From a virus, in the IMG/VR virus record IMGVR_UViG_3300047564_003884, positions 1 to 20,940 of that record: 20,940 nt of DNA, one strand, 5' to 3'. Below the pieces are notes generated by a model that was given only the letters and a program-made list of their open reading frames with translations, ran no database searches and was not told the origin of the DNA. Position numbers and translations under genes: made by a program. How positions within the stretch are numbered: position 1 is the stretch's first letter; every line of letters starts with the position of its first letter. Shown here piece after piece: positions 2-16,794 of the stretch.

Positions 2-3000
2 GCAATTTTTAGTGGAGAAGATATTTCTATCCCATCAATCCACCAGGAAGGATCATTAGTTAAAGGTTTAGACTCAGTATTTTTAACTACTATACTAGAT
101 AGGATCGTAAAACAGTATATTCCTGGTCTTCCCAAGTTAGATTACAATACTGTTAATATTGCGAATATCTTAAGAACAGTAAAAGACTTCTATTCATCGA
201 AAGGAACTAGACAAGCAATTTCATACTTGTTTAAAGTTCTTTATGGAGTAGACATTGATATTTCATATCCAAAAGATCAAATCATCAAACCTTCGGCTGC
301 ATCGTGGTCAATTGATACGATTTTAAGAGCCAAATTGATTTCTGGTAACCCAGAAAATATCAGAGATACTAGCATTATTCAAGAAGAAGATGCTGTGGAT
401 ACTAATGTTAGATATGCTGAAGCTACAGTTGAAAACTTTATCGCAATTCAAACTTCAGACTATGATGTTTATGAGTTAGTTTTGTCGGAAGAATCTATCA
501 TTGGTTCATTCACAATTCCTTATAAGACCAAACTGGCAGAACCAATGACGCCAGAAACTTCGATTATCACTGTAGACTCTACCATTGGATGGCCTGAGAG
601 AAATGGTGAAATTATTGTTGGTACAGAAATCATTAGATATAAGGAAAAATCATTAACGCAGTTCATTGAATGTACCAGAGGTATTAATGAAACTCCAGGA
701 TCTTGGGATTCTGGTACTGTTATTTCCTCAAATTTCTACATTAAGGCAAATTCAGGTACACAGAATGAAGTTGTAATGTCGGTTCTTGGTATTGTTGAAT
801 CGAACAATACAACATTAACTGATGAAAGTAGTTACTACTTACCTGGAGATAAATTGAGTATCTCTAAATTAGGATCTTTAGATACATCTCCTCTTGTAAC
901 TTCATGGTTGTATAACGTTAAGAAATTAATTCAAGTAGAGTCGATCACGTATGGTGGTATTGGCAATAAAACAGCAACTGTTACTTGCTCCAATCCACAT
1001 GGTCTGTTAGTTGGTGACCAAGTAACAGTTTATGGTGCAAACCCAATCGTGTATAATGGTTCTTTCCTAGTTTCTGCTAGAGAAAGTGCTTTAGTATTTA
1101 AGTACGAACTACCACAACCAGCAACATTAAACCCACAGGGCAATATTCTAATTTCTGTCGATTTAAATAAAGGTAAGAGCGATGAGCAATCAATCAATTC
1201 CGCTATTACCAACTTTGCGACAAATATTCAGAATACATTCTTTAATGCATCCAATGTATATGTGGCAGCATCGGGTATTCCAAACTATAAGATTGGTCCT
1301 TTCTTAGGAACATCATTACTTCCAGGAAACCAGAGAAAATTATATAGATTCCCAAGAAATCCACAGACAATCTCACTAAAACCAGAAACAAAATACGGGG
1401 CTGTTGGATCATTCATCAATGGAGTTTCTGCATGGAACTATAAATCGGATACAATTTATAACTATGGTCCAGTAACAAATGTCAATATTATAAATCCTGG
1501 TTCTGATTATGACGCAGATTCTCCCCCAGTTCTATCATTTAAAGGTGGAGGAGGTTCTGGGGCATCTGGACGTGTAGTTGTAGATGGATCAGTAACCTCG
1601 ATTGAAGTTACAAATCAAGGAAATGGTTACACAACTTCGCCACTAGTTTCAATTTCTGGAGGAAAAGGTTCTGGTGCATCTGGAACTGCAATTATCACCA
1701 ACGGAAAAGTAACTCGTATTTTAGTAAATACACCTGGATCGGGATATACTTCAGCACCAACAATTACAGTTACTGGTGGAGGGGGTACTGGATGTACCGC
1801 AGCTGCTTCTGTAAGAGGTCCAATCAAAGAAGTTATTGTTGATGAGTATGGTAATGACTATACTTCAGCACCTGAAGTTTCTCTCAGTAGTGGAGAGGGG
1901 GCAGCTGCACAATCATATGTAAGTAATGGAAGAATCCTTTCTATTGCTGTTATTGCATCGGGTAATGGTTATACCACTGCACCAAAAGTTACAATTGTCG
2001 GAGAAGGATATGGTGCTGTTGCAATCGCAAATATTCAGACAGAAGGATCTGAAGCAGGAAAGGTAACTTCAATCACCATCCTAAACAGAGGTATTGGTTA
2101 TAAGCAAGGTACTACCCAAATTAGGTTGGAATCCGTTGGTAATGGAGCACAGTTTAATACTGAAATTTTTGGTTGGACATTTAATCTACAAGCAAACGTT
2201 AATTATGACTATGCGAATGGATCTATCTTTGAAGGATTCAATAAGCAGTTTGGTGGTGAATATGGTCATGTATCCAATCCAAAGCAACTCAGATACGTTC
2301 TTGGTGATAACTTAACTGTTGTCCAGGGACAAATTGTAGAAAAGGAAAGTGGTATTGTTCACTCCCCTATTATTGGTTGGGCTTTTGATGGCAATCCAAT
2401 TTACGGACCATATGGACTATCAGACCCAACTAACCTTTCTAGTACAGTTGTACCAATTAAGAGTAGTTATGTATTAAAGAGTAATCTGGTATTCGATCCG
2501 CAAATAAATCCCACTCCAGTTAGAATTGATGGTCCATCTTTGGATGAATATTCATCTGGTACTTTTGTGGAGGACTATATCTATCAATTTAGAAGCGAAC
2601 AATTCTATTTGGATGAATATAATGGTAGATATTGCAAAACGCCAGAGTATCCAGAAGGAACCTATGCATATTTTATCACACTAAATTCCGACGGATCTCC
2701 AGCATTCCCATATATTGTTGGACCAAACTTCTATTCCATTCCAGATTCTTGGAACTTAACTCAATTTGCTGTTCAGTCAAATATTCCTTCTGGTATCGTT
2801 AGATATAGAGCACCATTTGAGAATGTTGATATTGATGTCGATAGAGCTCCAAATGAAAGCACAAATGCACTAACTTTAGAAAATGGAGACATTTTAACCT
2901 TTGAGGTTGAAGATGAGAATAGAGATGGTGTTATTGATGAATTTGAAGAAGGAGATCCAGATCAAATCTTCGAAGAGTCTAAACTACAGCTATTTGATTA

Positions 3001-6000
3001 CTTCCCCAAAATTGACTTCTCATCGAGGGTTGATATTGAAATTGAAACTACTACCAAATTTGAAGACGCTAAGATTAGTGGATTTCTAATTGAAAATGCT
3101 GGAGAAAATCATCAGGTTGGTGATAGACTCATTTTTGATGATACTGGAACTGAAGGATACGGAGCTTCTGCTGTAGTTTCGGAAATTATTGGTAAAAATA
3201 TCACTTCATACAACTATGAATATAGTGCAGCACAAGATGAATATTTTGGTATTGTACAGACAGAATCTGCACATAATATGGTTATTGGTGATATTGTCAA
3301 TGTGACTACTGTTCCATTGATGGAACCTACATCAAAATCTATCTACGTTAGAACAATCCAAGGTCTTGAGGATGTTGTTGTAGTGACTCCAGGACTAGGA
3401 TACGACCCAGAAATTGATATTCAAGCGGTAATTGATAGTGATACTGGAGTTGGCGCTATAGTAGAACCAATCGTTTCATCTACAGGTTCATTGAATGATG
3501 TAAGGATTATAAATTCTGGTAGAAATTATCTATCAGATCCAAAGATTAGAATTTCGCACCCACAAGTCCAAAAAAGATCAATCTACTTTGCTATCAGTAG
3601 ATATTATGATGGTGCTGTTAAAATCTTTAAGTCTATTACGGATTCATCAAAGAATACTTATATTGTTGGATCTGTAAAATCATCTAATAATGATACTCAT
3701 GGATTTATTTCTAAGATTAATAGCGAAGGCACTGTACTTTGGTCTAAGTCTCTGACAGCTATCCAACCAGGAAGTACAAAGAGAGCAGAATTTATTGATA
3801 TCGTAAAGAATGGATCTGATCTCTATGTGATTGGTAATACATATCCAAATACTCCATCAGCGGATAACTTTAATCCTGATCTTCTCTTCGCAAAGTATAC
3901 CGAAAATACTAGTGGAACTTCAGTAACTTTAACTTGGCAAAAAGAGGCTGCTGGTATTAGTGGTGTACTGAGAAAAGACTATATCACTGGAATTTCTTCA
4001 ATTAATAATAATATTATTATTTCTGGATATACCACTACAAATTCTACTGGCACATACGATGGTATTTTAATGTACCTATCTCCTGGTGGAGACATTTTAC
4101 ATAAGAGAAAATTAACATCAACAACAGGAACAGAAAAATTACTTGCAATTAAAGTTGATTCTAATGATAATATCTATGTTGTTGGTCAAACGGTAGAGAA
4201 TAATTTACTTGTAGCGAAATTAAGAATTGTAGAGAGTAAAATTACCGCAACTTGGCAAAAGCAAGTTGTTTACAGCGGTCAAGAATTCCATGATATTACA
4301 TTTGATATTGATGAATATGATGAATTGTTTATTACTGCATCAATTGGTACAACAACTAGAAATAGACTTGCTCTAGTTAAACTTGATGGAAATGCAAATG
4401 TTATTACTCAGAAAGAATATAGTATCCCAAGCATTTATTCAATTGTGGGAGCCGGATGTACTATTGACGTATTCTCTGATCTAAATGTTGGTTATTCCGC
4501 CGTTGACACCAACGGTAAGAAGACTTCAGGCGTAATTAAATTGGACTACAAGGGCAATGTGATCAATTCATATACTTTGAGTGGTGTGGAAGGTTATAAC
4601 TTAGTACAGGTCCTCTCGGACGTGTCTGGTGATCCATACTTTGTGGGTAACATTCAACCAAATAGATCACAATTCCTCTACAATGGAAATGATTATACTG
4701 ATTTTATCAGTAGACAAGGTAATTTAACAACATCTGGTACTGTAAGTATTAATACAGATCCAAAGTGGGGTACTAATGCATTTACTGTTGGTCAGAATGG
4801 TGTTCTATCGACCCCAACACTATCAAATTCTGGTAATTGGACTGTTGATGCTTGGATTAAGTGGGACTCAGCGGCCACTGCAAAGGTTGCTCAAATTTTA
4901 AGAATCTACGATTCGTCTTTAACTGACGGTATCAAGGTTCAATTATTTGCGGACAATAGTTCACCATCAACCTTAGGAAAATGGAGAATTTCAAACGAGG
5001 GTGCTACTATATCAACGTTCTCGGCATCAACAAATAATGTAACTCTTCTTTCTAGTGGTTATTACTATATTGCTGTCAATAAGTCATACAATTCTTCTAC
5101 TGGTATTTCAACTTATACTTTATACTTTAACGGTGTCCAGCAAGCACAAATTACATTAACAAATAATATCAACCCAACTCTAATTCAGGTTGGTTCGTCA
5201 ACTACCTATAATTCTTGGCCAACAAAGATTGATAGTTTCAGACTGTCAAATTATGCAATTGCTGCAATAACTATTCCAACAGCGGCATTCTCTGGATATG
5301 ATTATGGGACAGAAGTTGGTTACTTAATGAAGTTTGATAAGAATGCAGATGCAGAAAGAATGGGTAATATTACCCTAACAAATAATGGTATCACTACGAC
5401 AAGAACCGCATCATCCATTAGTGGAAATCAACTGGAACTTCTAGTGGAGACATATACTCTAGGCCCAGATGGTCTACAAGTATTAGATATGAACGATACT
5501 ACTTCATATCTAACTCAAGACTATCATTTACCATCGACACATGCTGATGTGTGGAGTAGCAGAACAGCAACAATTCCTTCCCCTGGAGGAAGAAAGGCGG
5601 TATTTGAAACTAGTGCATATGGTAAGTACTTCTTTAGACATTTTACAATTGATAAATTCGATAACGTTAGAGTTCTAGAAATTAATCAAGATTTTAATTT
5701 TGATATTGGTACTAGAATTAACCAGAAGAATTCGATTGGGGCAACAGTTGGTTCCGCAAGAATTGTTGATATTGATGCAACTAACGATCTTTTATATGTT
5801 ACCGATGTCTCTGGAACTTTCTCAACGAATACTGGTTATTTGGAAAGTTCTGATCTAAAGATTAACGAAATTGAAGATTATTCATTCCCATATATCGATG
5901 CTGATAGTCCAGGAACTTTTAATATCTCAATTCCTGTTGAGGTGGAGGCAACATTTAAGAATTACTCTGATGAAGACTATCTAATTAGAATTGATGAAAT

Positions 6001-9000
6001 TATTACTGGTGCAGCTTATGCTAGAGGATCTGTAGTGTCTCTTGGGCAAGAGTATTTTAGTTTCTCTTCAGATAGAAGATCGGTAACAATTTCTGGATTA
6101 GCATCAGTAACGCAAATTACATTAATTGCTAACTTAACCAAGACGCTTCAAATTGATGCTATTTCAAATACAAACCAGATCTTTGCAAGATCTACAACTT
6201 CACATTATCTCTCTACTGGGGAAAACATTTATACCGAAACAGCACCAGTGTATTCATATGCTGATGGATCTTTCTTCATCAAAGAAATTCTAAGCAAGAA
6301 AGAATTTATTTTTGAAATTGATAGTGTTCCTGGATCATTTATTGGAAGTGGAACTCAACTCTATGTTTATGTCAAGCATCCTGTATTTAAGTTCATTTAT
6401 GGGCAGCAGTACACCTTTGATGTTACCCATGTATCTAACGAAGGTTACTACTTATCATTCTATAGAGACAATTTAAATAAGATTGAATATACATTTAAGA
6501 ATATTGTCAGAAAAGGTATTCCTGGTAGAGATGCACCTGGCGCATCTCCATTTATTTCATTCAAGGTCACTGATGATGTTTCAAATATTAGTTATTATGC
6601 AGATCCATCTAGAATTGGTCCAAAGAGCCCAGTTTCAAACTTCTCATATATTGACGTTGTAAAGAGTCCTTATATTGGTAAGTTTGAAATCATTGAAACT
6701 TCTGGTGGCACAGTAACAGTTGGGGACAATAAGTTTAAATTTAAGATTGATATTGATCCAGAAAAGAATGCACAATCTTCCCTATCATCATATTCAACTC
6801 AATCTTCTAAGGTTGCTGGATCTATTGCAAATATTAGACTTGTTAATGGAGGAGGTTTCTACAAGAAACTACCCGTCATTACTGATATTCAATCTGTAAG
6901 AAAAATTGAAAGAGTTGAAATTAGAAGTCCAGGAACAGAATATCAACCAGGAGAATACTTTGGTGTACCAATTTTAGGTGATGGTGCTGGAGGAAAGGTA
7001 AGAATTACTGTGGACGAGAATAGTGATCCTGCAGGTCAAATCATTGAGGTTGCTGTAACAGATCCTGGTAAAGGATATACTGAGGCATATATTGACGTTG
7101 ATGCCATTGATGGAATCTTGGGTCCACAATTAAGCGGTTCTGGTGCTGTTCTTGATGTCATTATTCCACCAAAGGGTACTGGATCATCTATCTTCGTTCA
7201 AGGTGAAAATGTTGGTAAGATTAAGAAACTGAAGAACAATAACTTTGGATTTAATTACACGCATGATTATACCTTAAGACCAGAAATTACATTCCCCGTA
7301 AACCTACAATTAATTAATACAAGTATTCTTAGTAACATTAAAGTTACAGATCCTGGTACTGGTTATACATCAGTTCCCCAGGTTGTAATCACAGGTGGTG
7401 GTGGATCGGGTGCTGAGGCTATTGCAGAAACCCGAAACGGAAGAATTAGTGGTATCGTAATCAAGAATGCTGGATTTGGTTACAGTACTGCTCCTACAGT
7501 TGAGTTAAAGACATCCTTTACTTATGTTGTGAACTTAGACCTCGGACTATTCCAGATGGCATATCCCCATGGAATTACTAATGGATCTGAGATTACATTT
7601 ACTGTAGAGGATTTGGGTGAAGGAACTGCATTCCCACTAACCTCATTCGGTTATATCATTCCAGGTCAGATCTATTATGCAATTGCAGGAGAATTTGCAG
7701 GTCTGGAAGATGATCAACTAAGAATTGCATTAACCCCACAAGATGCAGAATCTGGCAACTATATCTCTTTTGCTAATGCTGGTAATGGAAGACAAATTTT
7801 ATTAACTAACTCATTTGGTGGAGCAGCAGAGGCTATTGTTGAAACTGGAAGATTCTTATCTGGTGAACAGGTATTCCAAGGTGAAACTCTAGAAACTGCA
7901 TCCGCAATTGGTTATGTTTCTGACAATGATGGGTGGCAAATCGGTCCAAGAATCCTTAAACTGATCAATACAACAGGAACATTCTCGGTGGGGCAAATTG
8001 TAAATGGTGTCATTTCAAAGGCAAGTGGTACTATTGATAACATCAATGCAGCAAAAGGAGTTATTGAGGTGGATTCGATCACCAAGACTCCAGGTAAGTT
8101 CTTAGATGATGTCGGCAAACCAAATGAAATTGTTCAAAAAATTCAAGACTCATATTTATACCAACAGTTCTCATATAATGTGAAGTCCCCAATTTCCATT
8201 GATCAGTGGAAAACTACAGTAATCGATAACACTCATCCAACAGGATTTAAGATCTTTGGGGAAATTCAAATCGAAGAAGATCAAAAGGGACTCACGGATA
8301 AAGTCGATTTTGAACTAACGAAGAGCGTAAATCTTGTCGAAAGTTCTGTCGTCGCTCATATTGACAACTTTGGACTAGTAGAACCAGTTTATAAAGAATT
8401 TGATAATACACAGGTACTATTTAGAACCAAAAAACTAACATCATCCGAGGAGATTTTAACTTCATACGTTCAGAAAATTGATGATATTGCATATCTATTT
8501 GATGGTGAGAGAACATCTTTCCCACTAACCATTGATGGAAATACTGTAATTGCCAACACCAATCAACTGCAACTCATAATTAATGGTGTTGCACAGTCTC
8601 CTGGAACATCCTTCCAAGTTCAACAAGGAAGTATTGTATTTAGTGAAGCTCCGCCTGCACCAACCAAGATCAGTTATGCTAGATTAACACTACAATTCTT
8701 ACAGAGTTTTCAAATTGAAATTAGCAATGTCAGTGGTATTTTACCAGAACTTGGACAAACTATTAGAGGTCTAGTTAGTGGTGTTTCCGCAACTGTAATT
8801 GAATCAACAACATCATCAATCACTGTCTTCAATAAAAGCGGCAATTTTACTCCTGGGGAACTACTCCTCGGATCTGCTACTGGACTAAGTGCTCAATTTG
8901 ATTCTGAAGTACTACTTGTTAATGATAACATCTTTGAATTTAAAGAGGCGATTACAAATACAAATAAAAAAACAGCAGAAGTTGAGGAGATCAATTTAAA

Positions 9001-12000
9001 TATTGCAAATAGCGTTGTAACTAACGAGATTGTAATTAGTAAGACTTCTGGTACGTATAATAGTCCCTCAGGTCTCCTAGCGATTGGAATCAATGATTTT
9101 ATTATTTCGGCCAAAACCAAAGTTATTGCCAAAGTAATTTCAGTTTCTCCATATATTGATCCTGAAACTGGAGCTCCTATTTCATCAATTGCAATTAGTG
9201 ATCCAAGTACTTTCTTTGGACTGTTATACAATAGAATTGTATCGCCAGATTATCCAAACGTAATCATAGATGATATTAGCAAATCTAGTGTAGAGATTGT
9301 AGATATCTCAGATTCGGATATAAAGATTGAGGGAAGAATTCCAGAATTTGAAACTATCAATAATATTACTGCGGAGTATACTGTAAACTCTGGTACTGGT
9401 ATTGTAGAGGAAGAGTTTATCCAAAACATCAAGATCAACTATATTAATTCAGATGGTGATTTTGCTCCTAATGAAGTTGTTAACGTAAATAAATTAGCAT
9501 ATAAAGATCTATCTGGAGGTAACTTCCAGTCTGGAGATATTATATCAAATGGATCGGGATACACCGCCAATGTTATTGGTGTAAGTTATGCATTGAAATA
9601 TTTGTTCTTAGGAGAGCAAACGGGTTCGTTTAGTATTGGTGACACAATATCATGTGATAGATCATTTGTATCTAATGATGATATTGTTGCTGGTAGAAAT
9701 GCTGATGCATCCGACCTAATTCTTGCTAACAAACTTTTAATTGCTGATGTTGCAGTCGGTAGAATGCTTGCTGCCTTCCCTGGATTTACTGTACCAGGAG
9801 GAAACCAAAATTGCAAGGATGATATTGTTGATGTTCTAGATGAAATTTGTTTTAACCTTAAGTATGGTGGAAACCATAGAGCATATGATGTAGGTCAACT
9901 CTACATCGACAACACATATTTACAGGACGAGAGAGATGAATCGGTTTATGCTTTCAACCAAGCAAGAAACATGGCAATTCAGGCCATGCGTAACGAATCA
10001 ATTACCATCGGTGGTTATTCATCTCTCAGTCAGTATTTCAATCTATCTGTAGAAGGAGATCAGTCTGGAGAAGAAGGAGTTTATATTCCTGGTGACTGTG
10101 CTGATGTTGCAGCATCACTAACTACATTATTTGGTATTGTAACCCAAGCTATTGGAAGTGATGCAACTCCTGGTAATTTAACTGGCATTACAAGAACTAA
10201 TATCGGAACAGTATCTGCAGAGATCTCAGCATATTTAGAGATTCCATTTAATGTAGAGCAAATTAATACTACCACTGATAGTATTACAACGTTCCAATAC
10301 TTTGATGATACTCAACACAGATTTAGAGATGCAGCAAATCTACTAAGATTGAATTCCACTTATATTATTGAAGAAACTGTTGGTAGAATGAAGAATCTGT
10401 ATCCAGATTTGATTATTCCTGGTGATCAAACTGGAGGATCTGATGGAACTTCCAGATGTAAAGTGGATCTATCACTACTTCTAAATGCTATTATCGATGA
10501 CTTAGAGTATGGAGGAAACTATGAAACTCTAGCTGCTGGACGTTTTTACTTAGATGAAAACGGTGGTATTAGATTTATCGCCAGACAAATTCTACAGAGC
10601 GTATATGCTCACCAACAGATGAGTCTATTGTGTCAGGAAGCAGTGCAAGGTACTTTGTCAAATACACCAGATTATACCAATGAAATTCCAGTACTACCTT
10701 TAGACATTACCATTGATCCAGCACCAGTAAACGGAGTATATTGTGCAGATGTAGTATCAAAAATTGATACCCTATGGTCTTTAATCAATGAGGTAATTAC
10801 TACTACTGGAGATGTATATAAGGATGCATCAAATGCTCTTTGGTTCAATAGAGACTTTATTGCAGATGAAGCGGTAGGTAAAACAACTAGTTATTTCACA
10901 TATTTCTTAAACGGAACTCAATATAAAGCGTTTGAATATCCAGGTGGAAATAATGGCGTAACTAAGTGTAAAAGAGATATCGCAGATTATATTATTCCAT
11001 CAATCATTGCCGATTTAATGAGTGGCGGTGACTCAAATACAATTGATGCTATGACATACTATATTGATATTAATGATGTTCTCCACGTCAAAGATGAACT
11101 TCTACCAACAATCTATGCATTTGAGCAAGTAAATATTCTTTGCCAATATGCAATTGATAACTGGGTTGTAACAGGAACTTCTGATGTTTATTCTGCACAA
11201 TTTGGTAATGCTGCAGATATGTACTTTGATGAGTCTATCACAGAAGATGATGGTACTTATGGGGGCAACTGCGCTGTAATTAAGTCTGCTATAGATGCGC
11301 TTTTCACAAAAGCAATTGATATCTTATTACCAGTTCATGCAAATACTGACACCTATAGAGATGCTGCTAAGTTAATCCTATTCAACAAAGAGTATTTTAA
11401 GGAGGAGATTGCTGGAGCCGTAACTGCACAGTATCCAGGATTCAATTTTGGTGGAGCAAACTCTACAGAATTACCAGCATACAGAACAAAATGCAAGAGA
11501 GACATTGGATATATTGTAGATGCAATTGTATATGATTTACTAACAAATGGCAACTCTGCAATCCTTTTTGCAACACAGTCCTATATTGATGCTGCAACTG
11601 GAACATTAATCTCCTTACAGGGTGAATTAGTTCAAACACTATATGCATACACATTATTGAGAACTTTCATGAAGTCTGCCATTAGAGAGAACTTAACTTC
11701 ACCTTCACCAAATGTTTCATTCTATTCATACACCGATAATAATATCGCTATAACTGCTGGTCAACTAACTACAATTGACACCTTCCTGGATAATAGGATG
11801 TCAATCTTATTAGGAACTCTCAACAATTCAAATTACATTGAATCAAATGAGATTGTTGCATATAATGCAATCAATGTTCCATCTAGAGTGTATCCATCCA
11901 GAATTGATATTACTGGAATTAGCGGTAGACTAAGTGCTGGTGATTATATCTATGGACAAACTTCAGGTATCAAAGGAGAAATAGAATCTATCTTTACAAA

Positions 12001-13885
12001 TAGAGCTACTATTAAGAAGACTTTAAAGAGAGTAAGAATTAACTTCACTCTTCCACTAGAGAGATTCATTGAGAATGACGCAGTAACCGTTCAAGGTTCA
12101 GCAACAAATAATGGTATAGTGTATTCATACTCATACTCGGAAAACTTTAATTATATTGATGTTGATGTAAACTCTGGTTCTTTCACCCCAGGTGATATTC
12201 TAATTAATGGTGAAGGTTACACGGCAACAGTAGTTTCTGTGACAGATAAAGTACAGATTTCAAAACTAATTGGTGAATTTAGCAATGGAGATAAGATTAG
12301 AGAATTTGGTTCTAGTACAGAATTTACAATTTCTAATTATTCTAATGTAAGTGCTCCAGTTTTAGATAACACTGGTTCCAAATTGACCCTGGAAACGGAG
12401 TCTTATTTTGGAAACTTTAATGTTTCGAATGTCATTTATTCAAACACTAGTGATGTGTACATTGATGTGAAATATAACTTGGGAACACAAGTTGGTCTTG
12501 GTGATCTAGTACTAACTAAAAAAATCTATAAACTAGAAGTCGTATTGAGTGATCCAGCTGTTGTAAGTTTTCCTTTGGGAAATCAACTTCAAGATTCGGC
12601 ATTGTTAACAACAATTGGCACTATTGTTGCATTTATTCCAAATGATCCTGAGGCACCTACAACTGCAGAGATTTATGTCGGTAACTTAGAACAAGACTTC
12701 TTTACAAATGGATCCACAGTTAATTGCTATGAATCTGGAAATAATTTCCCAATTGGTATTGGAACTGTCACTTCAACACAAGAAATAACATCTGAGGCTT
12801 ATGGATTTATTGAAAAGATTGATCAGGTTGGTGAGGGGTATAGAATTTATCTAAGTTCGGTAAAGGGTACTTTCAATCCATATGCACAATTATTGGGAAG
12901 ATTTGGATACAAGTCTCTAATTACAGATACAAAATCTATTGTTGGAAGAGTATCAAGAAGTTTTAGGGGATTTGATGGTGTACAAGATACTTTTGATCTA
13001 ACTATCAATAATGGAACCTCATACTTACCAAACCCAGATGGTCATATGTTGGTATTCTTGAATGGTGTTCTACAACCACCAACAACTTCATACTCTGCGT
13101 TTAGTGATGTTATTCAATTTACTGAACCACCAGAACTCGGAGCTTCTTTCCATGCAGTTTATATTGGTAAATTAAGACAACTAGATGATATTGGATTTGA
13201 ATTTGACTCCCTAAGAAATAGTTTTAACTTAAAGTTAGATGAAGTTTTCTACTCTCTAACAGTTACTGCTGGTTCAGAAGCATCAAATATCAAACCAGAA
13301 AATAATATCATCATTTCACTAAATGGTATCATCCAGGAACCTGGAGTTGCGTTTGAACTTGTTGGTTCTCGTGTAATTTTTGCGGAGATTCCAAGAGCAG
13401 GTTCTAGTTTTGTTGCATTCTCATATATTGGTTCTGACGCTGACGTTATTGCTTCGGAAGTTGTCCCTCCAATTGAATCTGGTGATGAACTTTTAATTGA
13501 AGGTGAAGATCAGGATAGAACTGTTGCTATCATTGAATCTTCAAACTCTCTTGTGACATTTGATTACACAGGATCAGTCTTTGGTAGAAATGCATCTGCT
13601 CTTGTATCTTTGATCAAGGGAAGAATTACTGAGTTGTCAGTAACCTCAACAGGTAACGGATATACTTCGAGACCAACAGTATCAATTGATTCTACAACTG
13701 GATTTGACGGTCAAATTAAAGCATTAGTTGGTGTTTCTAGAGTTGATGTGGTTGACAGAGGAGGTGGATATAAGTATCCAGAGATTGAAATTATTAATGA
13801 TGTGTCTGATACTCCTGCACTATTGATCTTTGACTCTACTGGTACATTCTTCGATACTGAAGATATTACGTTCGACCAGGCATAA
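2..13885 (+). CDS. Giant modular virion structural protein, gp7-like baseplate wedge component (5' partial)
   Basis: The frame is open from the left edge to TAA at 13883-13885, giving at least 4,627 residues; the true start lies outside the window. The first in-frame TTG (227) is not a credible start because conserved coding sequence precedes it. Residues ~61-90 carry FYSSKGT and YLFKVLYG, and residues ~2717-2758 carry SYNVKSP, QWKTTVID and HPTGF; both resemble, from memory, the C-terminal part of T4 gp7, a baseplate wedge protein. Domains in order (window residue numbers): CTRG motif ~180-231; six GxGY repeats 491-711; YHYH-like domain ~787-913; EF-hand-type loop 971-982; propeller-like repeats ~1195-1550; LamG-like ~1558-1763; further GxGY repeats ~2275-2500; FDG/LNGV modules at 2827, 4321 and 4395; four CKxDI repeats 3233-3899. 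No signal peptide or membrane segment is seen. The role is probably virion baseplate or peripheral fibre-like structure. The structural call is strong; the gp7 link is inference from two short motifs. Confidence 0.85.
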   Translation, partial: AIFSGEDISIPSIHQEGSLVKGLDSVFLTTILDRIVKQYIPGLPKLDYNTVNIANILRTVKDFYSSKGTRQAISYLFKVLYGVDIDISYPKDQIIKPSAASWSIDTILRAKLISGNPENIRDTSIIQEEDAVDTNVRYAEATVENFIAIQTSDYDVYELVLSEESIIGSFTIPYKTKLAEPMTPETSIITVDSTIGWPERNGEIIVGTEIIRYKEKSLTQFIECTRGINETPGSWDSGTVISSNFYIKANSGTQNEVVMSVLGIVESNNTTLTDESSYYLPGDKLSISKLGSLDTSPLVTSWLYNVKKLIQVESITYGGIGNKTATVTCSNPHGLLVGDQVTVYGANPIVYNGSFLVSARESALVFKYELPQPATLNPQGNILISVDLNKGKSDEQSINSAITNFATNIQNTFFNASNVYVAASGIPNYKIGPFLGTSLLPGNQRKLYRFPRNPQTISLKPETKYGAVGSFINGVSAWNYKSDTIYNYGPVTNVNIINPGSDYDADSPPVLSFKGGGGSGASGRVVVDGSVTSIEVTNQGNGYTTSPLVSISGGKGSGASGTAIITNGKVTRILVNTPGSGYTSAPTITVTGGGGTGCTAAASVRGPIKEVIVDEYGNDYTSAPEVSLSSGEGAAAQSYVSNGRILSIAVIASGNGYTTAPKVTIVGEGYGAVAIANIQTEGSEAGKVTSITILNRGIGYKQGTTQIRLESVGNGAQFNTEIFGWTFNLQANVNYDYANGSIFEGFNKQFGGEYGHVSNPKQLRYVLGDNLTVVQGQIVEKESGIVHSPIIGWAFDGNPIYGPYGLSDPTNLSSTVVPIKSSYVLKSNLVFDPQINPTPVRIDGPSLDEYSSGTFVEDYIYQFRSEQFYLDEYNGRYCKTPEYPEGTYAYFITLNSDGSPAFPYIVGPNFYSIPDSWNLTQFAVQSNIPSGIVRYRAPFENVDIDVDRAPNESTNALTLENGDILTFEVEDENRDGVIDEFEEGDPDQIFEESKLQLFDYFPKIDFSSRVDIEIETTTKFEDAKISGFLIENAGENHQVGDRLIFDDTGTEGYGASAVVSEIIGKNITSYNYEYSAAQDEYFGIVQTESAHNMVIGDIVNVTTVPLMEPTSKSIYVRTIQGLEDVVVVTPGLGYDPEIDIQAVIDSDTGVGAIVEPIVSSTGSLNDVRIINSGRNYLSDPKIRISHPQVQKRSIYFAISRYYDGAVKIFKSITDSSKNTYIVGSVKSSNNDTHGFISKINSEGTVLWSKSLTAIQPGSTKRAEFIDIVKNGSDLYVIGNTYPNTPSADNFNPDLLFAKYTENTSGTSVTLTWQKEAAGISGVLRKDYITGISSINNNIIISGYTTTNSTGTYDGILMYLSPGGDILHKRKLTSTTGTEKLLAIKVDSNDNIYVVGQTVENNLLVAKLRIVESKITATWQKQVVYSGQEFHDITFDIDEYDELFITASIGTTTRNRLALVKLDGNANVITQKEYSIPSIYSIVGAGCTIDVFSDLNVGYSAVDTNGKKTSGVIKLDYKGNVINSYTLSGVEGYNLVQVLSDVSGDPYFVGNIQPNRSQFLYNGNDYTDFISRQGNLTTSGTVSINTDPKWGTNAFTVGQNGVLSTPTLSNSGNWTVDAWIKWDSAATAKVAQILRIYDSSLTDGIKVQLFADNSSPSTLGKWRISNEGATISTFSASTNNVTLLSSGYYYIAVNKSYNSSTGISTYTLYFNGVQQAQITLTNNINPTLIQVGSSTTYNSWPTKIDSFRLSNYAIAAITIPTAAFSGYDYGTEVGYLMKFDKNADAERMGNITLTNNGITTTRTASSISGNQLELLVETYTLGPDGLQVLDMNDTTSYLTQDYHLPSTHADVWSSRTATIPSPGGRKAVFETSAYGKYFFRHFTIDKFDNVRVLEINQDFNFDIGTRINQKNSIGATVGSARIVDIDATNDLLYVTDVSGTFSTNTGYLESSDLKINEIEDYSFPYIDADSPGTFNISIPVEVEATFKNYSDEDYLIRIDEIITGAAYARGSVVSLGQEYFSFSSDRRSVTISGLASVTQITLIANLTKTLQIDAISNTNQIFARSTTSHYLSTGENIYTETAPVYSYADGSFFIKEILSKKEFIFEIDSVPGSFIGSGTQLYVYVKHPVFKFIYGQQYTFDVTHVSNEGYYLSFYRDNLNKIEYTFKNIVRKGIPGRDAPGASPFISFKVTDDVSNISYYADPSRIGPKSPVSNFSYIDVVKSPYIGKFEIIETSGGTVTVGDNKFKFKIDIDPEKNAQSSLSSYSTQSSKVAGSIANIRLVNGGGFYKKLPVITDIQSVRKIERVEIRSPGTEYQPGEYFGVPILGDGAGGKVRITVDENSDPAGQIIEVAVTDPGKGYTEAYIDVDAIDGILGPQLSGSGAVLDVIIPPKGTGSSIFVQGENVGKIKKLKNNNFGFNYTHDYTLRPEITFPVNLQLINTSILSNIKVTDPGTGYTSVPQVVITGGGGSGAEAIAETRNGRISGIVIKNAGFGYSTAPTVELKTSFTYVVNLDLGLFQMAYPHGITNGSEITFTVEDLGEGTAFPLTSFGYIIPGQIYYAIAGEFAGLEDDQLRIALTPQDAESGNYISFANAGNGRQILLTNSFGGAAEAIVETGRFLSGEQVFQGETLETASAIGYVSDNDGWQIGPRILKLINTTGTFSVGQIVNGVISKASGTIDNINAAKGVIEVDSITKTPGKFLDDVGKPNEIVQKIQDSYLYQQFSYNVKSPISIDQWKTTVIDNTHPTGFKIFGEIQIEEDQKGLTDKVDFELTKSVNLVESSVVAHIDNFGLVEPVYKEFDNTQVLFRTKKLTSSEEILTSYVQKIDDIAYLFDGERTSFPLTIDGNTVIANTNQLQLIINGVAQSPGTSFQVQQGSIVFSEAPPAPTKISYARLTLQFLQSFQIEISNVSGILPELGQTIRGLVSGVSATVIESTTSSITVFNKSGNFTPGELLLGSATGLSAQFDSEVLLVNDNIFEFKEAITNTNKKTAEVEEINLNIANSVVTNEIVISKTSGTYNSPSGLLAIGINDFIISAKTKVIAKVISVSPYIDPETGAPISSIAISDPSTFFGLLYNRIVSPDYPNVIIDDISKSSVEIVDISDSDIKIEGRIPEFETINNITAEYTVNSGTGIVEEEFIQNIKINYINSDGDFAPNEVVNVNKLAYKDLSGGNFQSGDIISNGSGYTANVIGVSYALKYLFLGEQTGSFSIGDTISCDRSFVSNDDIVAGRNADASDLILANKLLIADVAVGRMLAAFPGFTVPGGNQNCKDDIVDVLDEICFNLKYGGNHRAYDVGQLYIDNTYLQDERDESVYAFNQARNMAIQAMRNESITIGGYSSLSQYFNLSVEGDQSGEEGVYIPGDCADVAASLTTLFGIVTQAIGSDATPGNLTGITRTNIGTVSAEISAYLEIPFNVEQINTTTDSITTFQYFDDTQHRFRDAANLLRLNSTYIIEETVGRMKNLYPDLIIPGDQTGGSDGTSRCKVDLSLLLNAIIDDLEYGGNYETLAAGRFYLDENGGIRFIARQILQSVYAHQQMSLLCQEAVQGTLSNTPDYTNEIPVLPLDITIDPAPVNGVYCADVVSKIDTLWSLINEVITTTGDVYKDASNALWFNRDFIADEAVGKTTSYFTYFLNGTQYKAFEYPGGNNGVTKCKRDIADYIIPSIIADLMSGGDSNTIDAMTYYIDINDVLHVKDELLPTIYAFEQVNILCQYAIDNWVVTGTSDVYSAQFGNAADMYFDESITEDDGTYGGNCAVIKSAIDALFTKAIDILLPVHANTDTYRDAAKLILFNKEYFKEEIAGAVTAQYPGFNFGGANSTELPAYRTKCKRDIGYIVDAIVYDLLTNGNSAILFATQSYIDAATGTLISLQGELVQTLYAYTLLRTFMKSAIRENLTSPSPNVSFYSYTDNNIAITAGQLTTIDTFLDNRMSILLGTLNNSNYIESNEIVAYNAINVPSRVYPSRIDITGISGRLSAGDYIYGQTSGIKGEIESIFTNRATIKKTLKRVRINFTLPLERFIENDAVTVQGSATNNGIVYSYSYSENFNYIDVDVNSGSFTPGDILINGEGYTATVVSVTDKVQISKLIGEFSNGDKIREFGSSTEFTISNYSNVSAPVLDNTGSKLTLETESYFGNFNVSNVIYSNTSDVYIDVKYNLGTQVGLGDLVLTKKIYKLEVVLSDPAVVSFPLGNQLQDSALLTTIGTIVAFIPNDPEAPTTAEIYVGNLEQDFFTNGSTVNCYESGNNFPIGIGTVTSTQEITSEAYGFIEKIDQVGEGYRIYLSSVKGTFNPYAQLLGRFGYKSLITDTKSIVGRVSRSFRGFDGVQDTFDLTINNGTSYLPNPDGHMLVFLNGVLQPPTTSYSAFSDVIQFTEPPELGASFHAVYIGKLRQLDDIGFEFDSLRNSFNLKLDEVFYSLTVTAGSEASNIKPENNIIISLNGIIQEPGVAFELVGSRVIFAEIPRAGSSFVAFSYIGSDADVIASEVVPPIESGDELLIEGEDQDRTVAIIESSNSLVTFDYTGSVFGRNASALVSLIKGRITELSVTSTGNGYTSRPTVSIDSTTGFDGQIKALVGVSRVDVVDRGGGYKYPEIEIINDVSDTPALLIFDSTGTFFDTEDITFDQA
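182..262 (+). other. SKG motif, gp7 C-terminal-like segment
   Basis: Codons read KDFYSSKGT, then YLFKVLYGVDI. A short amphipathic helix of the form FYxSKGTxxxxxxLFKVLY is what I recall near the C-terminal end of T4 gp7 (FYSTKG...FLFKVLYN) and in related phage wedge or tail proteins. Its position at the very left of the window shows that the gene's 5' part is missing. Confidence 0.5.
539..694 (+). other. CTRG motif module (first copy)
   Basis: The encoded segment has the pattern T-x-I-x-V-D-S-T-x-G-W-P...G-x-I-x-x-G-x-E-x-I-R-Y...F-x-E-C-T-R-G. A second copy with the same core (ELIRY, then GCTRG) lies in the downstream split gene at 17615-17770. I read it as a small beta-rich module reused in virion proteins; its function is unknown. 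Confidence 0.55.
1472..2154 (+). repeat. Six tandem GxGY protein repeats (37-43 aa each)
   Basis: Unit starts are at 1472, 1592, 1709, 1823, 1934 and 2063. The consensus is V-x-s-I-x-V-x-n-x-G-s-G-Y-T-s-a-P-x-V-x-I-s-G-G-G-G-s-G-A-x-a-x-a-x-x-x-n-G-k. The sixth unit is degenerate and runs into the YHYH-like region. Related units occur later in this protein (about 3370-3560, 6820-7180, 7325-7500, 13616-13815), in the split gene (16857-17540, 18590-18800) and in gp8 (19571-19834). The alternating pattern suggests short beta strands joined by glycine-rich turns. Confidence 0.85.
2168..2740 (+). other. YHYH-like domain
   Basis: The segment contains FGW, then an HSPIIGWAFDGNPIYGPYG core, then LDEYNGRYCKTPEYPEGTYA and YF, and ends in FPYIVGPNFY. 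The order GWAFDGxPIYGPYG, LDExNGR, FPYxxG is the signature of the YHYH domain as I know it. The tetrad that names the family appears here as YAYF (about 2663-2674), so its histidines are absent. The domain is found in secreted and phage structural proteins and its molecular role is unknown. Confidence 0.65.
2912..2947 (+). other. EF-hand-type calcium-binding loop
   Basis: The twelve codons read DENRDGVIDEFE, which fits the EF-hand loop pattern with D at 1, N at 3, D at 5, G at 6, I at 8, D at 9 and E at 12. It is a single copy followed by an acidic stretch (EEGDPD), and flanking helices are not obvious. Calcium binding is inferred from the pattern only. Confidence 0.5.
3584..4650 (+). repeat. 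Six-unit beta-propeller-like repeat array
   Basis: Six imperfect units each read aromatic/I-V-x-G-x-T/S...G-x-L-x-K-x-x...G-x-x-x-W-x-K. Examples are YIVGSVKS...ISKINSEGTVLWSK, YVIGNTYP...LLFAKY...TWQKE, IIISGYTT, YVVGQTVE...LTWQ-like TATWQKQV, FITASIGT and VGYSAVDT. This is the look of SBBP or PQQ-like beta-propeller blades. Six blades could close one propeller. The role is probably a carbohydrate- or protein-binding platform in the virion (inference). Confidence 0.6.
4673..5290 (+). other. LamG / concanavalin-like lectin domain
   Basis: The segment contains FTVGQNGVLSTP, NWTVDAWIKW, KWRISNEG, YYIAVNKS, TYTLYFNGVQ and IDSFRLSNYAI, in the order expected for the jelly-roll LamG_3 type fold (W-T-x-D-x-W-I, then xYxNGV, then I-D-x-x-R-x-S). 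Such domains bind glycans in many virion and surface proteins, so host surface recognition is plausible but not shown. Confidence 0.7.
6820..7500 (+). repeat. Second GxGY repeat cluster with DVIIPP module
   Basis: Repeat-like units include NIRLVNGGGFY, VEIRSPGTEY, VAVTDPGKGYT, IKVTDPGTGYTSVPQVVITG and IVIKNAGFGYSTAPTVEL. Between them, around 6968-7187, is a longer module with GDGAGGKVRITVD, then GKGYT, then VDAIDGI, then DVIIPPKGTG. That longer module has a close relative in gp8 (19571-19834). Confidence 0.7.
8150..8275 (+). other. gp7 C-terminal-like HPTGF motif
   Basis: Codons read SYNVKSP, then QWKTTVID, then HPTGFKIFGE. From memory, T4 gp7 has a matching run near its C-terminus (YYVMKIKS...RWKSDV...HPVGFGF). 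Together with the SKG motif at 182 this is the basis for calling the giant protein gp7-like. Confidence 0.45.
8480..8698 (+). repeat. FDG/LNGV module, copy A
   Basis: The pattern is aromatic-x-F-D-G-x-x-x-S-F-x-L...L-x-I-N-G-V-x-Q-x-P-G...I-x-F-x-E-A-P-P. Two further copies lie side by side at 12962-13180 and 13184-13450. Modules of this form occur repeatedly in tail and fibre proteins of marine myophages, in my recollection; the function is unknown. Confidence 0.6.
9698..11698 (+). repeat. Four large CKxDI...GGN repeats (about 120-205 aa spacing)
   Basis: Copies start near 9698, 10316, 10814 and 11345. Each has D-A-x-x-L-x-x-x-N, a helix with E-x-x-x-G-R, an FPG or YPD/YPG turn, a C-K-x-D-I/L helix, D-L-x-x-G-G-N/D (NGN in copy 4), a short Y-I/L-D strand, then an x-x-x-Y-A-x-x-Q/L helix. 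Copies 1-3 end with a second cysteine helix (GDCADVAASL, GVYCADVVSK, GGNCAVIKSA); copy 4 lacks that cysteine. These units are predicted to be mostly helical, unlike the beta-rich remainder. They are a tandem duplication family; function unknown. Confidence 0.75.
12962..13450 (+). repeat. FDG/LNGV modules, copies B and C
   Basis: Copy B (12962-13180) contains FRGFDGVQDTFDLT, VFLNGVLQPP and IQFTEPPELGASF. Copy C (13184-13450) contains GFEFDSLRNSFNL, ISLNGIIQEPG and VIFAEIPRAGSSF. They are adjacent and share the order of copy A at 8480. A GxGY repeat pair follows at 13616-13815, before the stop codon. Confidence 0.65.
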
Positions 13886-13888
13886 ATA
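13881..13888 (+). promoter_or_regulatory. T4-type late promoter-like octamer
   Basis: CATAAATA differs from the T4 late promoter element TATAAATA only at the first base, and fits the NATAAATA form reported for T4-like cyanophages. It overlaps the stop codon of the giant gene and lies 28 bases before the fibre ATG. It could separately drive the fibre-to-gp8 genes late in infection. In AT-rich DNA such octamers also arise by chance. Confidence 0.45.
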
Positions 13889-13916: not shown

Positions 13917-15107
13917 ATGGCTAGACAAAGCATTGGTGTTGGTTCGCAGGCAAATGATGGTACAGGTGATACCCTGCGAACTGGTGCTCAAAAAGTTAAT
14001 TCGAACTTCAATGAAGTATATAATAAATTAGGTAATGGTACTGATTTGCAAATCAGTATCACTGGAGTTTTTTCTGATGGGATGACTCTAAGATCTAATG
14101 GACAAGAATTTATACCATCTAGTTTAAATTATAACGATCTACTTAATAGACCTACAATTCCAGATCCACAAGTTCAAGCAAATTGGATCGAATCTGATAT
14201 TAATGCTGCAGCATACATTAGAAATAAACCAGGAATTCCTACTACAGTATCAACACTATCTGATGTTTTAGTTTCTGGACCTTCTATTGGTGATGCACTA
14301 CGTTGGAATGGCACTGGATGGATTAATCAGGCAGTTCAAGAGTCTATTGTAACTGCATTAGATAATCTAACTGATGTCAATATCACTTCTGTTGCAGTTG
14401 GTAATGTAATTAGATATAATGGTACTGCTTGGGTAAACACGGCTCTAAATTATTCGGATTTATACAATGCCCCACCACTATCATCTGTTGCCATTAGTGG
14501 TGATTATGACGATCTGACAAATAAACCAGATCTTAGTGTTTATTTGACATCCCAGGTCCAAAGTGACTGGAATGCCTCTAGTGGATCTGCACAAATTTTA
14601 AATAAACCCACATTATCTACAGTAGCAACTTCTGGTAGTTATACAGATTTATCTGATGCACCAACACTATCTGCTGTAGCTACAACTGGTGACTATGATG
14701 ATCTTTTAAACACCCCAGATTCACTAGCACCTTCCAGGACAACTGTAAGTGGTACAACAACATCAATTAACAATAATTTTTCCGCAAATTTAACAATTAC
14801 TGGATTTAAAACTTATGCATTATACAAAGTAGAAACCTCAGAGTCTGCATGGGTTACTATCTACACAGATGTAAATGCTAGATCAAATGATACTTCAAGA
14901 CAAGAAACTACAGACCCAGCTCCTGGTTCTGGAATTATTGCTGAAGTTATTACAACAGGAGCCGAGACAGTATTATTTACCCCAGGAACTATCGGATGGA
15001 ATAATGATGATCCAGCATCCAGTAATATATACTTAAAAGTTGTAAATAAGTCTGGAGTACCAGCTGCGATTACAGTAACGTTAACCCTTCTTCAATTAGA
15101 ACTCTGA
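13917..15107 (+). CDS. Tail fibre-like virion protein
   Basis: This 396-residue protein begins MARQSIGVGSQANDGTGDTL, an N-terminal motif shared by many fibre and structural proteins of marine T4-like phages and probably an attachment segment to the virion. The middle holds short repeats: YNDLLNRPTIP, YSDLYNAPPLS, YDDLTNKPDLS, YTDLSDAPTLS and YDDLLNTPDS, plus two RWNGTGWI/RYNGTAWV units each preceded by a LSDV or LTDV turn. The C-terminal ~120 residues look like a compact beta domain ending TLTLLQLEL. No signal peptide or membrane segment is seen. The start is supported by AAGGAG 14 bases upstream. It lies 31 bases after the giant gene and one base before the protease. A peripheral fibre or fibre-tip role is inferred; receptor specificity cannot be read from the sequence. 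Confidence 0.8.
   Translation: MARQSIGVGSQANDGTGDTLRTGAQKVNSNFNEVYNKLGNGTDLQISITGVFSDGMTLRSNGQEFIPSSLNYNDLLNRPTIPDPQVQANWIESDINAAAYIRNKPGIPTTVSTLSDVLVSGPSIGDALRWNGTGWINQAVQESIVTALDNLTDVNITSVAVGNVIRYNGTAWVNTALNYSDLYNAPPLSSVAISGDYDDLTNKPDLSVYLTSQVQSDWNASSGSAQILNKPTLSTVATSGSYTDLSDAPTLSAVATTGDYDDLLNTPDSLAPSRTTVSGTTTSINNNFSANLTITGFKTYALYKVETSESAWVTIYTDVNARSNDTSRQETTDPAPGSGIIAEVITTGAETVLFTPGTIGWNNDDPASSNIYLKVVNKSGVPAAITVTLTLLQLEL
14122..14721 (+). repeat. YxDLxNxPxLS fibre repeats
   Basis: At least five imperfect units of the form S-x-x-Y-x-D-L-x-N-x-P-x-L/I-S/P are spaced through the middle of the fibre protein, with VATSGSY and VATTGDY linkers between the later ones. Such short repeats are typical of trimeric phage fibre shafts. 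Confidence 0.65.
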
Positions 15108-15108
15108 T

Positions 15109-16794
15109 ATGGAAAGAGAATACGTAGTAACTCTAAAGAAATACGAACAATTGGAGGAATTCTATGATGACATGGAAACTCCAGGGGGAAATTTGTACAT
15201 ACCAAATAGGATGGTGGAATGTGCATTAAGAAGAGATATTTCTAGAAATACACACTACATGCTTACTGATGAAGAGGCAGAAGAAGTAAGAAATGATCCT
15301 AGAGTTCTTGCTGTAGAATTGTTACCAAAAGAAAGAGGTATTAACCCAGTTCTTTTTTGGGATCAAACTGGAAATTTTGAAAAATCTTCAACTGTAGATC
15401 AAGCAGATAAAAATTGGGGACTACTTAGATGTATTAATGGTTTCCAGATTTCTGGATGGGGTACTAATGTAGGATCTGAGACTCAAAAAACAAGTTTGAA
15501 TATCAAAACCACAAGTTCTGGTAAGAATGTTGATGTTGTAATTGTTGATGCACATGTAAATCCCAATCACCCTGAGTTTGCAGCAAATCCAGACGGATCT
15601 GGTGGTGGAAGAGTAAATACTATAGATTGGTATGAGTATAACGATTATACTGGAGCAGTTGTTAGTGGATCTTACGATTACTCCACTGTTTCCAGCAATC
15701 ATGGAACTCACGTAGCGGGAACTGCTGTAGGTAATACCCAAGGATGGGCTAGGGATGCGAATGTGTATTCAATAGAATTTAATTATTCCAACAGTCCAGT
15801 CTCAGAATGGGATTTAATTCTATTTGATTACTTAAGAGCATTTCATAGAAATAAACCAATTAACCCAGAAACAGGTAGAAGAAACCCAACTGTAACAAAT
15901 CATAGTTGGGGATATTCATATGGGAATATTGGACTATCGAATATCACTTCAGTAACATATAGAGGAATAACTACTGATATATCTGCGTTGAGTACAGCAG
16001 ATAAAAAAATTGCTCTAGAATCGAGGGGTGTTCCAGTTCCATTTGGAACATATCTGTACAAGATGCCTGCAAGAGTTGCTGCATTGGATGCTGATATTCA
16101 AGATGCAATTTCCGATGGAGTTATTGTAGTTTCATCTGCTGGAAATTCATATTGGCAAGTATGTAGAGATGCTGGAGATAGTGACTTCAATAACTATATG
16201 ACCATTGGTGGTACTAATTTCTATCATGCACAGGGTTCTTCCCCAGGAGCTGCCAATAATGTTATTTGTGTGGGATCTATTGGATCTGAACATGTGGAGA
16301 AAAAGGCAAATTATAGTAATTGGGGTTCGAGAATTGATGTATGGGCTCCTGGAACAAACATCATATCTAGTGTGTACAACTCTTCGGCTGCGTCTGAATT
16401 TGGAATTACACTAGTCAATGATGTGAGGAATAGTTCTTATTATCTTGGGTCAATTAGTGGAACTAGTATGGCATCACCACAAGTTACTGGTATTTTGGCA
16501 TGTTTGGCAGAACAAGAACCAGATATGAATCAAGCAGATGCAATTATATATGTTAGCGAATATGCAGTAAAACAAAATCAGTTATTCAATCAAGAACCTA
16601 ATGTGGATTGGGTAAATGCTGGTTCTCTACCACCAACTCAGAGTCCATATGATTCTCTATCTGCAAGTGATAACAATAGATTTTTATATTATGTTAAAGA
16701 ACGTCCTTTGGAAGGTGTTACTGTACCAAAATGCAATTTCAAAAGACGACCACAAACAGGAGTAGTTTATCCAAGAATAAGAGGTAGAAGATAA
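15109..16794 (+). CDS. Subtilisin-like serine protease (S8 family)
   Basis: The 561-residue protein has the full subtilase triad: Asp147 in VVIVDAHV with HPEF downstream, His198 in NHGTHVAGT, and Ser453 in GTSMASPQVTG; oxyanion-hole Asn346 lies in SSAGNS. Residues 1-71 (EYVVTLKKYEQLEEFYDDM ... LTDEEAEEVRNDPRVLAVEL) resemble an inhibitor-I9 propeptide, suggesting synthesis as a zymogen cut somewhere after residue ~71. No signal peptide is seen, so it should act in the host cytoplasm or ride in the virion. The C-terminus is basic (KRRPQTG, then RIRGRR). ATG follows the fibre stop by one base without a clear Shine-Dalgarno, so translational coupling is likely, and its TAA overlaps the next ATG. 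The fold and active site are secure. A role in processing virion proteins or digesting host surface protein is inference; it is not the usual T4 prohead protease (gp21) type. Confidence 0.92.
   Translation: MEREYVVTLKKYEQLEEFYDDMETPGGNLYIPNRMVECALRRDISRNTHYMLTDEEAEEVRNDPRVLAVELLPKERGINPVLFWDQTGNFEKSSTVDQADKNWGLLRCINGFQISGWGTNVGSETQKTSLNIKTTSSGKNVDVVIVDAHVNPNHPEFAANPDGSGGGRVNTIDWYEYNDYTGAVVSGSYDYSTVSSNHGTHVAGTAVGNTQGWARDANVYSIEFNYSNSPVSEWDLILFDYLRAFHRNKPINPETGRRNPTVTNHSWGYSYGNIGLSNITSVTYRGITTDISALSTADKKIALESRGVPVPFGTYLYKMPARVAALDADIQDAISDGVIVVSSAGNSYWQVCRDAGDSDFNNYMTIGGTNFYHAQGSSPGAANNVICVGSIGSEHVEKKANYSNWGSRIDVWAPGTNIISSVYNSSAASEFGITLVNDVRNSSYYLGSISGTSMASPQVTGILACLAEQEPDMNQADAIIYVSEYAVKQNQLFNQEPNVDWVNAGSLPPTQSPYDSLSASDNNRFLYYVKERPLEGVTVPKCNFKRRPQTGVVYPRIRGRR

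Follow-up and report, generated by a model that had tools for sequence, protein, structure and literature searches.

The locus analysed here raises the question of what protein is encoded by a single frame that stays open over 13,884 bases, and whether it is, as a sequence-only reading had claimed, a relative of T4 gp7, a baseplate wedge protein, that has absorbed a very large set of surface modules. In T4, the gp7 core contributes, together with gp6, to the assembly of every one of the six baseplate wedges. The window, i.e., the whole stretch of DNA under study, is a virus fragment of 20,940 bases (IMGVR_UViG_3300047564_003884). The giant gp7-like frame occupies positions 2-13885 on the + strand and encodes 4,627 amino acids, with its 5' end lying off the window. 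ORF reading found no earlier stop across the 4,627 codons before the TAA at 13883-13885, which bore out the claimed length of the open frame.

A relative in another IMG/VR record (3300005805_000062; L006/L086) is about 95% identical to the window protein and has an N-terminal surplus of about 632 residues. Since this near-identical protein carries these further residues, the comparison suggests that the complete giant is about 5,260 residues long. The profile of phrog_701, a virion structural protein, scored 5,318 bits against the giant, with its best stretch at residues 2-3003. When residues 1-500 were used as the query, 496 phage records were matched, 391 of them with a coverage of at least 80%. 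The closest records were all Kyanoviridae or other marine cyanomyoviruses, and the closest isolate was Synechococcus phage S-CREM1, with 74% identity over the same residues. The same architecture was observed in the isolates S-CREM1 (5,422 aa), S-H38 (5,512 aa) and Syn9 (6,076 aa) and in many IMG/VR contigs, and therefore the frame is neither a chance event nor an assembly artefact. Gp7s of 3,000-6,600 residues are general in cyanomyoviruses, and some are already labelled 'gp7' or 'baseplate wedge initiator'. The single giant virion protein of the sequence-only reading is thus real and gp7-like, but not peculiar to the virus of the window. Public records and one published table (PMC9146016) already contain both the size of the giant and the gp7 label, and earlier comparative work assigned gp7 to the non-cyanophage core, remarking on how divergent it is (PMC3037559).

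The first part of the gp7 core (motif 1, residues 13-128; FYSSKGTRQAISYLFKVLYG) is encoded at 38-385 on the + strand and corresponds to T4 gp7 731-759. The T4 core motif FY-TKG--SYKFLFK-LY-E (T4 729-759) is present in the giant, and residues 62-87 of the window protein aligned directly with T4 gp7 733-758 by BLASTP (50% identity, E 5e-4). The same two collinear top matches to T4 gp7 were obtained by BLASTP for the window, S-CREM1, S-H38 and Syn9. Using hhalign, a profile of 119 cyanophage sequences was compared with 40 T4-like gp7s, and motif 1 matched T4 729-759 with a probability of 96.4% (E 1.3e-9). With an N-terminal profile containing motif 1, gp7 chains were the best two among 177,635 PDB sequences (E 0.0024 and 0.0073). 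All full T4-like gp7 frames (40/40) outranked every other six-frame ORF and reversed decoy with motif 1. The Pfam family PF23786 (Baseplate_wedge) scored 26.8 bits against the window protein, compared to a cut-off of 27, and 29.5 bits against L006 including its N-terminus.

The second part of the core (motif 2, residues 2692-2797; SYNVKSPISIDQWKTTVIDNTHPTGFKIFG; positions 8075-8392, + strand) corresponds to T4 gp7 862-892. Direct BLASTP aligned residues 2727-2749 with T4 gp7 866-888 at 43% identity (E 0.05), and hhalign placed the motif at T4 864-892 with a probability of 48% (E 1.8e-4). The motif KS-LP-SRWKSDVIRFVHPVGF (T4 862-892) keeps a constant position after motif 1 and scores near background against T4 alone; in a single profile search with the six-frame and reversed decoy control it was not separable. 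After the profile was enlarged by the gp7s of phiM12, YB07 and RC-2014, 27 of 41 T4-like gp7s scored above the best non-gp7, a result that is not significant alone. Because the T4 signal is near background, the assignment of motif 2 rests on the intermediate gp7s, i.e., those of phiM12 (E 7e-18), YB07 (E 8e-19) and RC-2014 (E 8e-12), in which motif 1 is also present. At the level of sequence, the identity of motif 2 is supported via these intermediates and its constant position in T4-like gp7s. The motif spacing of about 2,650 residues and the following stretch of about 1,870 residues estimated beforehand were measured as 2,665 and 1,878 residues. In T4 the two motifs are indeed close together near the end of gp7, 133 residues apart and with 144 residues after the second.

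The Pfam domains Gp7_helical, Gp7_5th and Gp7_6th were detected in the gp7s of T4 and 44RR, and a Pfam scan found none of them in the window giant, phiM12, YB07 or RC-2014. Among the scanned phages these domains were restricted to Straboviridae, and therefore they define the T4 subfamily and not gp7 at large. The first 793 residues of L006 were modelled by AlphaFold with 43 homologues; in this model the beta module folded well and the core helices poorly (pLDDT about 40-70). Foldseek gave no significant match of this model to gp7, because the core helices were predicted at low confidence. A match of the two segments to T4 gp7 by profile or structure had been proposed as a check, and it was obtained by profile for motif 1 and not by predicted structure.

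The neighbouring genes, all on the + strand, were also compared. Downstream of the giant are a protein with a gp10-like N-terminal domain and a fibre part (13917-15107; PF07880, 34.2 bits; phrog_677), a subtilase in which the Asp-His-Ser signatures are present (15109-16794; PF00082, 92.7 bits), a phrog_708 baseplate protein (16794-18892), the baseplate wedge protein gp8 (18935-20467; PF09215, 62.5 bits; phrog_438, 728 bits) and a DUF4815 virion protein cut by the window end (20483-20938; PF16075, 40.2 bits). The gene order is 25-6-[giant]-10N-subtilase-8, with the genes upstream of the giant seen in the relatives and not in the window. In isolate genomes, the giant is flanked by gene 6 on its upstream and gene 8 on its downstream side, in some cases with a few other genes in between. 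Taken together, sequence, profile and gene order support the giant as the gp7 (baseplate wedge) gene product of a Kyanoviridae cyanophage, so that the homology first read from the letters has held, with motif 1 secure and motif 2 weak against T4 alone.

Several features of this gene cluster were recorded in their own right. A late-promoter-like CATAAATA at 13881-13888 overlaps the stop codon of the giant, just upstream of the gp10-like gene. The phrog_708 gene is one frame in S-CREM1 (703 aa), while in the window about 8 codons are missing and the frame is shifted and broken near 17237, which reflects either a sequencing error or a real small deletion. The subtilase gene lies amid the baseplate operon in the window, S-CREM1 and S-H38. 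In P-HM1, Sf-CH5 and ACG-2014j it is found at another place of the genome. Peptidase_S8 was absent from the complete genomes of Syn9, S-PM2, ACG-2014f and S-SZBM1.

The two parts of the core define where the additional residues are located. An insert of 2,563 residues (386-8074, + strand) occupies the slot of T4 domain V (T4 766-861), and a C-terminal extension of 1,830 residues (8393-13882, + strand) takes the position of T4 domain VI (T4 920-1012). On T4 gp7 itself, Pfam placed domain V exactly between the motifs and domain VI after the second. The giant is about five times as long as T4 gp7 because thousands of add-on residues occupy these two extra-domain sites. The gp7s could be arranged by total length and by the number of residues between the motif matches: RC-2014 (284/14), YB07 (503/230), phiM12 (1,007/771), T4 (1,032/102), S-PM2 (3,048/1,547), ACG-2014j (3,516/1,521), ACG-2014f (4,225/2,117), P-HM1 (4,446/2,305), Sf-CH5 (4,878/2,130), S-CREM1 (5,422/2,569) and Syn9 (6,076/2,675). 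Cyanophage gp7s thus have 1,521-2,675 residues between the motifs, and at least 1,100 after motif 2, while the chain ends at motif 2 in RC-2014 and phiM12. Since the slots are common to T4 and cyanophage gp7s and phiM12 fills the first only, the slots have been filled independently. In the group of the window, beta repeats spanning about 600 residues form a third insert ahead of motif 1, and the AlphaFold model placed this insert between the N-terminal helices and those of motif 1. The open-access literature yielded no description of the domain V and VI slots as shared sites.

Three other gp7s had further features. The 284-residue protein of Dickeya phage RC-2014 (L136 5473-6327; phrog_460) is labelled 'head closure Hc2', follows a baseplate wedge gene and carries adjoining gp7 core motifs; judging from these, it looks like a minimal gp7 that has been mislabelled. 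In the gp7 of Stenotrophomonas phage YB07 (L133 8752-10263, 503 aa), the insert between the motifs is similar to tail sheath domain I of T4, with a score against PF22639 (24.1 bits) just under the cut-off of 27. The gp7 gene of S-SKS1 (L130 13560 onward) is unannotated, its frame stops after 710 residues and 7 kb of unannotated sequence lies behind it; the break is probably due to frameshift errors in the record.

Modules were recognised in both slots. Within the domain V slot, GxGY / GGGGSGA beta repeats, which were also found in PHROG tail families, were read from the translation at about residues 480-720 (1439-2161, + strand). They are followed on the same strand by a YHYH domain (residues 725-895; 2174-2686; PF14240, 95.5 bits, cut-off 25), a weak beta-propeller-like stretch (about residues 1195-1550; 3584-4651; SBBP, PF06739, 15.1 bits, below the cut-off of 20.5) and a LamG / concanavalin A-like lectin domain (4805-5263; PF13385, 39.9 bits, cut-off 27.6). 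The absorption of surface modules suggested previously therefore stands with regard to the YHYH, LamG, GxGY and phycobiliprotein-fold modules, while the insert site proved to be the slot of T4 domain V and not a random one.

In the domain VI slot, four phycobiliprotein-fold repeats of about 150 residues each were found at 9692-11764 (residues 3231-3921), all on the + strand, and these, with their near-invariant Cys-x-x-Asp, are probably the most surprising feature of the window. Repeat 1 (9692-10117) matched the repeat profile at iE 6e-48, repeat 2 (10310-10768) contains Cys3486 and Asp3489 and was modelled by AlphaFold2 with a pLDDT of 89.4 and a pTM of 0.84, repeat 3 (10805-11296) was found with the repeat profile, and repeat 4 (11348-11764), found in the same way, also gave a weak phmmer match to phycocyanin alpha at residues 3786-3852. 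PF00502 scored 28.2 bits against the whole giant (cut-off 22.2), and 31 of 90 repeats matched it at E <=0.01. A profile of the 90 repeats found PDB phycobiliproteins at E 2e-7, and the PDB matches listed (60) were all phycobiliproteins or one fluorescent protein entry, which we take to be derived from a phycobiliprotein. Likewise, all the PDB matches listed by Foldseek for the model of repeat 2 (50) were phycobiliproteins or the fluorescent protein, with a best E of 4.8e-4, a TM of about 0.64 to phycobiliproteins and a probability of 1.00.

The Cys of the bilin site was kept in 89/90 repeats and so was the Asp at +3, and Arg at +2 was found in 40/90 only. Since 19 repeats have a single Cys, this residue is not simply half of an intra-repeat disulphide. 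In the phage collection, the repeat was found in 364 records, every one of them from a cyanophage. It was present in 10/10 cyanophage genomes tested, where between 1 and 13 copies were carried by frames of 836-6,619 codons, and absent from 3/3 non-cyanophage genomes tested. The window giant has four repeats and the 95% identical L086 has five, the missing unit being about 174 aa, in frame (window residues 3778-3786 versus L086 4410-4590), which indicates that the repeat number changes quickly. A scan of genome contigs for a bacterial source gave one short MAG contig only. A phycobiliprotein-like repeat is encoded at L178 3001-3621, in a contig of 4.4 kb that was binned with a Lewinella MAG and is most likely a stray phage contig. 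No description of phycobiliprotein-fold repeats in virions, or of the C-terminal slot of the giant, was found in the open-access literature.

As for their role, the repeats may be stiff helical spacers derived from the most abundant fold of the host, or they may bind something. Many cyanophages, including Prochlorococcus phages, carry bilin-reductase and lyase genes (pebS, cpeT), and to our knowledge Prochlorococcus has no standard phycobilisome. Conservation of the Cys and Asp, together with the presence of bilin genes in cyanophages, makes attachment of a pigment possible; we nevertheless consider it very unlikely that bilins are bound covalently to the repeats of gp7 and of other giant tail proteins. 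If they were, the baseplate of cyanophage virions would be pigmented, and the products of pebS and cpeT would serve the virions among other uses, in Prochlorococcus phages as well. Among 13 genomes, cpeT was found in 7, a bilin reductase in 2 and the repeats in 10. All ten genomes with repeats are cyanophages, so that the host confounds the comparison and nothing was concluded on a link between bilin genes and repeats; the association was rejected as inseparable from the host.

Selection and published proteomics were then considered for the whole chain. Between the window and L086, dN/dS was 0.059 over the 4,627 codons, no region exceeded 0.085, and the lowest values were at motif 1 (0.027) and motif 2 (0.005). 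Hence the giant is under purifying selection along its whole length, most strongly on the two motifs. Virion proteomics, which the sequence-only reading had proposed as a check, has been published for a homologue: mass spectrometry of purified virions assigned 71 peptides to the 'baseplate wedge initiator' of S-SZBM1 (6,619 aa, 724 kDa), a coverage of 13.5% (PMC9146016). This protein, S-SZBM1_208 (OL473597), is a full-length homologue with the motifs at 655-769 and 3517-3621 and at least 6 phycobiliprotein-like repeats. That publication lists it in a table without comment on its domains, does not take it up in the structural section, and reports that the phage has no long tail fibre (PMC9146016). 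In S-CREM2, which belongs to another cyanophage cluster, a 1,937-aa 'baseplate wedge protein, intermediate' encoded after a gene-6-like gene was detected with 91 peptides (PMC10665884).

We consider it highly probable that the giant is the gene 7 product of a T4-like cyanophage, with a split core and with module chains that would act as adhesive arms. Starting from the gp7 homology, the slot positions, the constraint and the published homologues in virions, we infer that the modules are exposed and adhesive. The core is split into two pieces (motif 1 and motif 2), which would anchor the giant in the wedge beside gp6. A module chain of about 2,560 residues leaves the core between these pieces, where T4 carries domain V, and a chain of about 1,830 residues follows the second piece, at the site of T4 domain VI. 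Both looped-out chains could then extend outwards at the baseplate rim and form six very large adhesive arms. These may take over part of the tail-fibre work in host recognition, in place of fibres that are missing from cyanophages. Contact with the cell surface would fall to the lectin-like and beta-repeat modules, with the phycobiliprotein-fold repeats as rigid spacers or interaction domains.

The gp7 homology could also be combined with a different function, if the modules formed a skirt or scaffold that strengthens the baseplate and replaces gp9-gp12-type proteins and were not host-binding arms. LamG, YHYH and many repeats are generally typical of exposed surface proteins, and the difference between four and five repeats in near-identical relatives is hardly compatible with a tightly packed scaffold, so that we regard a skirt as unlikely, whereas it would agree with older accounts in which cyanophages have no recognisable g10, g11, g12, g34 and g37 (PMC2984593). 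We think it rather improbable that the giant is a polyprotein, cut post-translationally into separate virion proteins of which one is gp7, perhaps by the subtilase encoded two genes further on. Tryptic mass spectrometry would be blind to the difference between an intact chain and its pieces, and a protease with Asp-His-Ser signatures lies in the same cluster in three of the phages (window, S-CREM1 and S-H38). However, motif 2 follows the insert, so excising the insert would split the gp7 core, and giants are also encoded by the four complete genomes that have no Peptidase_S8, which makes cutting by the subtilase less likely.

It is even harder to regard the giant as an unrelated giant fibre with short convergent motifs and the downstream phrog_708 protein as the true gp7. 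The phrog_708 proteins, of which those of S-H38 and S-SZBM1 are named 'baseplate wedge initiator' too, carry neither motif (all E >0.1) and were rejected as gp7. Although only about 30 residues per motif align with T4 gp7 itself, the phiM12-type intermediates match both motifs strongly, the motifs are the most constrained parts of the giant, and the place behind gene 6 is taken by the giant in all the cyanophage records that were checked; this reading is very improbable. That separate genes were joined by frameshift or misassembly might be suspected from the frameshifted phrog_708 gene in the window record, but it is hardly conceivable for a single frame that recurs in many independent contigs and isolates and has a dN/dS of 0.06 over its whole length.

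If the giant gp7 is built as proposed, T4-like phages of marine cyanobacteria would have grown two side chains from a core wedge protein, at the sites already in use in T4, instead of encoding all fibres as separate genes. The gp7s form an ordered series from a core of 284 residues up to more than 6,600 residues. In addition, a host-type fold, that of light-harvesting proteins, with an almost invariant Cys-x-x-Asp is found within a virion protein in every cyanophage genome examined, and these repeats bear on the question of why cyanophages carry bilin genes.

Compared to known systems, the giant shares with T4 gp7 (PDB 5IV5, 5HX2) the order of motifs 1 and 2, the gene position between 6 and 8, and extra domains in the same two slots. 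The two proteins differ in length (1,032 aa versus about 5,260) and in the residues between the motif matches (102 versus 2,563), and the Pfam gp7 domains of T4 are not recognisable in the window giant. Nor was the N-terminal part of T4 gp7 recognised in it, about 640 residues before the helical domain; unlike T4, the L006 giant starts near core-like helices, and a further beta module, about 600 residues long, comes after them. The gp7 of Sinorhizobium phage phiM12 (1,007 aa) likewise has both motifs and an insert of 771 residues in the same slot, but it lacks a C-terminal extension and ends at motif 2. The Ackermannviridae-type PF23786 protein of RC-2014 (284 aa) consists of motif 1, 14 residues and motif 2, and its core, in contrast to that of the giant, is uninterrupted by any insert. 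S-SZBM1_208 resembles the giant over the full length, with both motifs, the repeats and its presence in virions, but is longer and about 42% identical in the best stretch only. S-CREM1_163 (5,422 aa, OP535465), from the closest isolate, has the same neighbours including the subtilase and carries five phycobiliprotein-like repeats instead of four. Finally, the repeats share with phycobiliproteins (phycoerythrin/phycocyanin beta and alpha, PF00502) the fold and the Cys-x-x-Asp of the main bilin site, whereas their identity is at most 16-20%, they lie inside a virion protein, and they carry an additional C-terminal segment in which a second Cys is often present.
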